This document shows positions 1 through 1,262 of a stretch of 64,000 nt of DNA, piece by piece (within the stretch, counting starts at the first letter, position 1; each line of letters starts with the position of its first letter). A program made the position numbers and the translations under genes. The stretch is taken from the NCBI GenBank assembly GCA_040878325.1, contig JBBDMM010000012.1, positions 1 to 64,000 on the forward strand. The letters are read 5' to 3'. A model generated the notes under the pieces. That model was not told where the DNA came from. It ran no database searches and saw only the letters and a list, made by a program, of their open reading frames with translations. Origin of the DNA: Acidimicrobiia bacterium (GTDB taxonomy: Bacteria; Actinomycetota; Acidimicrobiia; Spongiisociales; UBA11373).

Positions 1-63
<63 letters not shown>

Positions 64-784
64 AGATCACACTGCGTCCCCTGAGAGCAATCTCAGGGTG
101 TTTATCGGCTCATATCGGGGAAATCCTGTCACTGGCACGAACTACGGTGTCAGGACAATCCCGAGGGAAGTTCAGAGCCATGGAGTCATTCCTTCCATAC
201 CTTGCAGGATTCTTCGACGGAGACGGAAGCTTATGCTTTCAGATCGTTCGTCAACGCGAGTACCGGTTCGGGTTCTACATCCGAGCCTCCTTCTCGCTCC
301 ATCAGGCCACCACGGCCGAGGATGGGCTCGCGCTCATCCGGAGGGAGCTGGGAGGACCGGGCTACATGCGCCGCCGGCAAGGCGGTATGTCAGACCTGGT
401 CATCACGCAACGACCAACGATCTCCGAGATCCTTGACCAGGTCCGACCGTACGTCGTGTTCAAGCGACGTCAGGTCGAAGCTGGTCTGGCTCTTCTCGAG
501 AGGCTGCCGCCTCCTCGAGACCCCGTCGGATTCCTGGAGCTATGTGAATCGGTTGATGACTTCGCATCCCTAAACGCTTCGAAGTCGAGAACGGTCACGT
601 CCGTGATCGTCCGAGACGAATTCGAGCGCACGGGTGCTCTGAACCCCGTAACGACTGATCCTTGATGGAGAGACGGAGTACTCACCGGTGGTCATCCACC
701 AAATATATGAGTTCCGTAATACGCCGACCCCCCGAAAGGGGGTGGAGGGATAGTCTGCACCCTCAGTAATGAGGGATCAATGTG
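64..784 (+). mobile_element. Group I intron in 23S rRNA (insertion site L2593)
   Basis: A 721-base insertion splits 23S rRNA between ...GAACGT and CGTGAGACAG, the L2593 site also used by the Chlamydomonas chloroplast I-CreI intron. Group I hallmarks are visible. The upstream exon ends in U63 and the intron ends in G784. An internal guide GCGT at 74-77 can pair with ACGT 60-63, giving a U63-G74 wobble (P1). TCAC 67-70 can pair with GTGA 786-789 (P10). CTGAGA/TCTCAG closes a GCAA-looped hairpin near 81-97. AATCCCGAGGGAA (158-169) resembles the conserved P/Q core. GTCT 753-756 with AGAC 671-674 is a candidate P7, and hairpins at 727-743 (P8-like) and 760-775 (P9-like) follow. Self-splicing is inferred from family knowledge. 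Boundaries are firm; helix labels are tentative. Confidence 0.93.
180..665 (+). CDS. LAGLIDADG homing endonuclease, I-CreI family
   Basis: A 161-residue single-motif LAGLIDADG protein that should act as a homodimer and cut intron-less 23S genes to spread the intron. The motif LAGFFDGDGSL (residues 8-18) supplies the metal-binding Asp15, equivalent to I-CreI Asp20. Gln42 and Lys95 align with I-CreI Gln47 and Lys98. The C-terminal half (GPGYMRRR...; FLELCESVD; LNASKSRTVTS) also aligns with I-CreI almost residue by residue, so the protein looks intact. I chose ATG180 because GAGGGAAG lies nine bases upstream; an in-frame GTG at 147 would add 11 residues. That ribosome-binding site overlaps the putative intron core. 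The reading frame ends just before the 3' core elements, the usual arrangement for an intron ORF placed in a peripheral loop. Confidence 0.95.
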   Translation: MESFLPYLAGFFDGDGSLCFQIVRQREYRFGFYIRASFSLHQATTAEDGLALIRRELGGPGYMRRRQGGMSDLVITQRPTISEILDQVRPYVVFKRRQVEAGLALLERLPPPRDPVGFLELCESVDDFASLNASKSRTVTSVIVRDEFERTGALNPVTTDP

Positions 785-1088
785 CGTGAGACAGTTCGGT
801 CCCTATCCGTCGCAGGCGCAGGAGGTTTGAGGGGAGCTATCCCTAGTACGAGAGGACCGGGATGGACGTACCTCTGGTGTGCCAGTTGTCTTGCCAAGGG
901 CACGGCTGGTTAGCTACGTACGGCACGGATAAGCGCTGAAGGCATCTAAGTGCGAAGCCGGCCCCAAGATGAGACCTCCCACCGTTCGCGGTTAAGACCC
1001 CTGACAGAACATCAGGTTGATAGGCCGGAGGTGTAAGCGCAGCAATGCGTTCAGCCGACCGGTACTAATCGGTCGAGGGCTTGAGTCG
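785..1088 (+). rRNA. 23S rRNA, downstream exon
   Basis: The 3' exon resumes with CGTGAGACAGTTCGGTC. It runs through the sarcin-ricin loop (CTAGTACGAGAGGACCGG near 842-859) and the conserved 3' region to about GGTCGAGGGCTTGAG. The 3' end is placed by analogy with other bacterial 23S rRNAs and is good to a few bases. Joined to positions 1-63 it gives an uninterrupted mature sequence. Confidence 0.95.
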
Positions 1089-1144
1089 AATACAAGATGT
1101 GCGTGCTCGCTATGGAGTGCTCAGGGTGCTGAGCATTCGAAGGT

Positions 1145-1262
<118 letters not shown>

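Follow-up and report, generated by a model that had tools for sequence, protein, structure and literature searches.

The insertion and its ribosomal RNA context

The window, by which we mean the whole 64,000-nucleotide stretch that was analysed, opens on the 3' end of a 23S rRNA gene (positions 1-1089), in which homology to the Rfam LSU model is broken by an insert of 721 nt at 64-784 (Table 1). The junctions read GAACGT, ending at position 63, then AGATC...AATGTG, ending at position 784, then CGTGAGACAG. We take the insert to lie between positions 2593 and 2594 of the 23S rRNA in E. coli numbering, that is, at site L2593. A preliminary description of this DNA had proposed an intron with these boundaries and an ACGT^ insertion site, and 23S homology breaks exactly there.

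The host genome (2.2 Mb in 18 contigs, 98.9% complete) can be placed through its neighbors. The same-order genomes G194, G037, G020 and G263 share sequence with the Acidimicrobiia loci L010, L007, L008 and L009, which places the window in the class Acidimicrobiia. No uninterrupted L2593 site occurs in this genome's assembly. The contig begins a mere 63 bases before the intron, so an additional rRNA operon lacking it could conceivably have been collapsed or lost in assembly. Several MAG contigs (the window as well as L007, L008, L011 and L012) start within conserved 23S sequence, 20-130 bases short of the L2593 intron. Assemblies thus tend to break just upstream of this intron, so that such introns are easily missed.

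Table 1. Features of the interrupted rRNA region at the start of the window, with the evidence for each.
Feature	Position	Strand	Evidence
23S rRNA 5' exon segment (contig start)	1-63	+	cmscan RF02541; Rfam model 2557 to L2593 site
Group I intron L2593, 721 nt, terminal G784	64-784	+	23S homology break; covarying helices, 8 related introns
P1, ACGUAG 60-65/CUGCGU 72-77	60-77	+	invariant, 8 introns
P1 guide GCGU 74-77, pairing exon ACGU 60-63; U63-G74 wobble at 5' splice site		+	invariant, 8 introns
P2 hairpin, 79-86/91-98	79-98	+	8 pairs, 5 changed on both sides, 100% paired
P3 5' strand UCGGC, partner 723-727	105-109	+	5 pairs, 3 changed on both sides, 100% paired
P4, 115-119/160-164; P5, 124-132/147-155	115-164	+	three distal P5 pairs only 79% paired
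P6, 165-167/644-646; loop L6 holds endonuclease gene	165-646	+	GGG/CCC invariant, 8 introns
Endonuclease gene, 161 aa, ATG180, stop TGA 663-665	180-665	+	ORF, PF00961, phmmer, AlphaFold2
P7 5' strand GACU, partner AGUC 752-755; G-binding helix	653-656	+	invariant, 8/8 introns
P7.1, 659-661/667-669; P7.2, 673-677/713-717; extensions typical of group IA	659-717	+	single-sequence folds
P3 3' strand GCCGA	723-727	+	eight-intron covariation
P8 hairpin CCCCC-GAAA-GGGGG	729-742	+	5 pairs, 3 changed on both sides
P7 3' strand AGUC	752-755	+	eight-intron comparison
P9 hairpin, 760-765/770-775	760-775	+	6 pairs, 4 changed on both sides
23S rRNA 3' exon	785-1089	+	cmscan RF02541
5S rRNA, rrn operon context	1146-1262	+	cmscan RF00001, 113.8 bits

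Secondary structure of the insert

RF00028, the general group I model of Rfam, failed to match the insert under permissive filters and at E-values up to 10, and gave no gathering-level match to six related introns in L007-L012. The preliminary description had named a covariance search without a group I core as grounds for rejecting the intron. Nominally, then, this result speaks against it, while covariation in eight introns speaks for the core. To obtain these relatives, genome contigs were scanned with the protein encoded in the insert, which yielded 14 related loci; L007-L012 are Acidimicrobiia or Actinomycetes MAGs with an insert at the same site, and L031 was added from a search of the class. 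Eight introns were aligned after removing the coding part, and a group I structure comprising P1-P9 was drawn by hand.

Standard pairs make up 97.9% of the 388 cells of this hand-drawn structure, as against 35-49% when the partners are slid, a control biased in the structure's favor by its having been drawn from the same sequences. Both sides have changed in 22 of the 49 pairs, compared with a mean of 10.1 after shuffling; none of 500 shuffles reaches 22. RNAalifold alone recovers P1-P6, P8 and P9, the P3/P7 pseudoknot being something that the method cannot draw. Among the eight introns P3 and P8 covary and P4 covaries at one pair, while P1, P6 and P7 do not vary at all; these last are conserved and neither support nor contradict the fold. 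The group I core P3-P8, including the P3/P7 pseudoknot, is present in the eight introns. Because its helices are supported by covariation in these relatives, the failure of RF00028 appears to be a limitation of a general model that is insensitive to ORF-bearing introns of the P7.1/P7.2 type. A covariance model of the intron 3' half, made from 11 such introns with the window itself as a member, scores the window at 135 bits.

The silence of RF00028 would also be in keeping with an intervening sequence that is not an intron: RNase III might excise it and leave the 23S rRNA in unligated fragments, or it might stay in the ribosome. Such elements are known from bacterial 23S genes (Tsurumaki et al. 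2024, PMC11270868). We give this explanation almost no credence in view of the complete group I core, the covarying P3, P8 and P9, the P3/P7 pseudoknot, the guide pairing and the terminal G. Furthermore, the insert occupies a site known for introns within the conserved peptidyl-transferase region, and 721 nt retained there would presumably be hard to tolerate.

At the splice sites, the P1 guide at 74-77 and the terminal G784 of the preliminary description hold up well: the guide pairs with ACGU at 60-63, placing a U-G at the splice site, and both the U63-G74 pair and the last base G784 are invariant among the compared introns. The P10 candidate fared less well. A pairing of CAC 68-70 with GUG 786-788 is possible but weak, and CAC is missing in L010 and L031.

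MAFFT did not align P7.1 and P7.2, so the segments were folded one by one. P7.1 forms a hairpin in all eight (loosely in L011), and a P7.2 stem is found in six, the segments of L012 and L031 having ended before the P7.2 3' strand. The occurrence of P7.1 and P7.2 between the P7 5' strand and the P3 3' strand assigns the predicted ribozyme to the group IA type. The finer subgroup of the L2593 intron is presumably IA3.

The endonuclease

The gene sits within loop L6, and its last codons span the 3' strand of P6 and the 5' strand of P7 and extend into P7.1. Its product matches PF00961 (LAGLIDADG_1) at 30.9 bits, above the cut-off of 23.1, and this significant family match, together with a single LAGLIDADG motif in a protein of ~160 aa, identifies it as a member of the I-CreI family. 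Searches with phmmer match I-CreI chains at an E-value of about 3e-23; the top match, at 4e-42, is a fused two-copy engineered I-CreI. The likeness to I-CreI that had been proposed extends to the active site, as Asp15, Gln42 and Lys95 align with the catalytic Asp20, Gln47 and Lys98. Across 13 proteins Gln42 and Lys95 never vary, and Asp15 is found in all save one incomplete row. An AlphaFold2 model (pLDDT 91.6) has I-CreI as its best match among solved structures (Z 21.0, rmsd 1.4 over 150 residues), followed by I-CvuI and I-MsoI. The latter two belong to the same family (Z 20.6 and 19.5, respectively) but share only 28-30% identity. The endonuclease is therefore predicted to adopt the I-CreI fold.

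The closest pair, L012/L031, has a dN/dS ratio of 0.11, and many other pairs fall at 0.2-0.3, with most dS values near saturation. Part of this coding constraint could act on the RNA, since the 3' end of the gene overlaps the ribozyme core. The joined-exon site, TAGAACGTCGTGAGACAGTTCG, differs at 3 of 22 positions from what we take to be the native 22-bp site of I-CreI. In L010 (1754-2224), the endonuclease frame lacks an ATG, GTG or TTG near the aligned start, and the nearest candidate starts lie upstream, inside the ribozyme core.

Two further introns in the same 23S gene

The upstream part of the 23S gene is found at the start of contig C1 (L005, G000), the last 16 bases of which, read in the 23S orientation, equal positions 1-16 of the window. 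Two more insertions occur there, both on the minus strand. The first, at L1923 (1381-1660), is a group I intron of 280 nt without a long sense ORF; its guide GCGGUU pairs with exon AACCGU, and RF00028 recognizes it at about 52-55 bits. The second, at L1951 (595-1352), is an intron of 758 nt with a LAGLIDADG_1 ORF. The stretch CCCCGTAACGACTGATCC, common to the L1951 and L2593 introns, suggests that their ribozymes are related. As judged from sequence, then, three group I introns (L1923, L1951 and L2593) reside in one 23S gene; multiple introns in one 23S gene are also known from cyanobacteria.

Distribution in the Acidimicrobiia and beyond

An uninterrupted L2593 site, allowing at most 2 mismatches, is present in 174 of 395 genomes of the class; the rest lack the site for various reasons, probably mostly because 23S is absent from MAGs. 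Six of the 395, this genome included, encode the endonuclease with an identity of at least 50%, and the covariance model of the intron 3' half finds the same six plus others. For instance, the L2593 intron of G001, a sister species in the same genus, ends at a contig end and is 90% identical over 101 bases, next to an exon 99% identical to that of the window. In G313 (L060) and G297 (L061), the L2593 introns measure 370 and 314 nt; ribozyme parts have been kept, and the endonuclease gene has been deleted down to a C-terminal remnant. Model matches in G171 and G168 sit at L1951. Outside the class, the phylum genomes G443 and G454 carry intron and protein at L2593, as G635 probably does, judging from its 3' exon. 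The same pair occurs at L2593 in a different host, the CPR bacterium of L013 (Woesebacteria). Searches of phage and plasmid records for relatives that might point to a vehicle found none, and contigs of IMG/VR gave only LAGLIDADG matches that were weak, at 26-30% identity, and one match of 18 residues.

Within the class, the site may be uninterrupted, hold an intron whose endonuclease gene is intact or, in two genomes, hold an intron with a gene remnant. Such patchy presence and gene decay fit the known cycle of gain, decay and loss, or homing cycle, described for group I introns (Haugen et al. 2007, PMC1995217). The same observations bear on whether the intron in the window is a fixed, immobile relic, with its endonuclease inactive or turned into a splicing helper. 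The same-genus genome carries the intron too, the gene has been deleted in relatives, and some LAGLIDADG proteins are known to be maturases (PMC1995217). Against this stand the intact frame, the conserved catalytic residues and the low dN/dS, although the constraint could partly be on the RNA. We regard the relic as a doubtful reading that keeps some weight, and favor a mobile intron.

Two side observations concern other insertion sites. L059 (G001) and L009 have another group I-like insert near L2604, ~11 nt downstream of the one at L2593; it measures 286 nt in the former and 749 nt in the latter. The homing site expected for L2593 is interrupted in its right half by this L2604 insert, so that competition between the two elements is possible. 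In the CPR, three introns (L014, 2858-3569; L015, 2862-3581; L016, 2832-3626) have the same architecture as the L2593 intron but are inserted in the sarcin-ricin loop. They carry I-CreI-like proteins 31-36% identical, and likely represent a switch of site.

Known systems and origin

Introns with LAGLIDADG genes at L2593 have been published from Thermosynechococcus elongatus, Synechococcus lividus C1 and Synechococcus sp. C9 (Haugen et al. 2007, PMC1995217). As described there, the cyanobacterial intron has a short P2, a short P5 and a P7.1/P7.2 extension. It resembles the insert in the window in site, in length (744-748 nt as against 721) and in these structural traits, and its single-motif LAGLIDADG proteins have 159-189 aa, compared with 161 here. 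The host phylum differs, and the likeness is one of published description rather than of sequence. LAGLIDADG_1 proteins have also been reported from CPR bacteria, in insertions at position 2593 of the 23S gene; other CPR insertions lie at 2604 and 2657 (PMC11270868). Text searches of open papers, which make up part of the literature, gave no report for Acidimicrobiia or Actinobacteria.

These reports bear on how novel the element is. Its identity as a group I intron at L2593 with an I-CreI-family endonuclease in an actinomycetote host stands as first described; its standing as a surprising first bacterial case does not. The cyanobacterial and CPR reports speak against that claim, as do the further Acidimicrobiia, the other actinomycetotes and the Woesebacterium. 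The element is genuine, ordinary in kind and new in host.

A further known counterpart is the chloroplast 23S intron of Chlamydomonas reinhardtii, which encodes I-CreI. It occupies the same site, and its protein shares 36% identity and the catalytic residues with that of the window. In contrast, the window intron resides in a GC-rich bacterial chromosome, and its protein is not a close relative of the algal one. Could the likeness to I-CreI stem from recent horizontal transfer, with a green-algal chloroplast as donor or as recipient? Site, endonuclease family and fold are the same, and frequent transfers among organelles and bacteria have been inferred (PMC1995217). Nevertheless, the window protein shares 50-65% identity with others from Acidimicrobiia, compared with 36% for I-CreI and 30% for I-MsoI, which stand together on long branches; the same-genus genome shares the intron 3' end; and L2593 copies occur in phylum genomes outside the class. 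Such a transfer is thus very improbable. In particular, a recent plastid donor is unlikely, as the pair seems to have been resident in the class long enough to diverge this far.

The preliminary description had suggested long-range transfer or old shared ancestry, and apart from making a recent plastid donor unlikely our results choose neither. In a protein tree, which covers no cyanobacterial sequences, the root and most inner forks are unsupported, and I-CreI and I-MsoI are joined; with support this poor, the tree does not decide the direction of transfer. Endonuclease identities roughly track 23S similarity, in two groups. This pattern is compatible with long residence plus losses, or with transfers mostly among near relatives.

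Proposed mechanism and implications

We are highly confident that 64-784 is a mobile group I intron of group IA type at L2593 of an acidimicrobial 23S gene, for which splicing, cleavage and homing are inferred. The transcript would fold into a P1-P9 ribozyme, in which an external guanosine held in P7 would attack after U63; the freed exon would then attack after G784, giving an intact 23S rRNA. The L6 gene product would dimerize as I-CreI does and cut the same conserved site in 23S alleles that lack the intron, whereupon double-strand-break repair would copy the intron into the cut allele. By splitting the site, the intron would protect its own host.

A broader proposal is that the Acidimicrobiia, along with more Actinomycetota, form an unrecognized reservoir of multi-intron 23S genes, in which uninterrupted, active and decaying stages of L2593 homing coexist and L2604 introns, lying within the homing site expected for L2593, possibly compete for overlapping sites; we hold the case for and against it to be evenly balanced. 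The present intron extends a known mobile element to the Actinomycetota. Because the general group I model of Rfam misses this type, ORF-bearing introns with P7.1/P7.2 are probably under-counted. Haugen et al. held that wider sampling was required to settle how such introns move (PMC1995217), and toward such sampling the class offers many new intron sequences, decayed ones included, as well as new natural relatives of I-CreI for enzyme studies.
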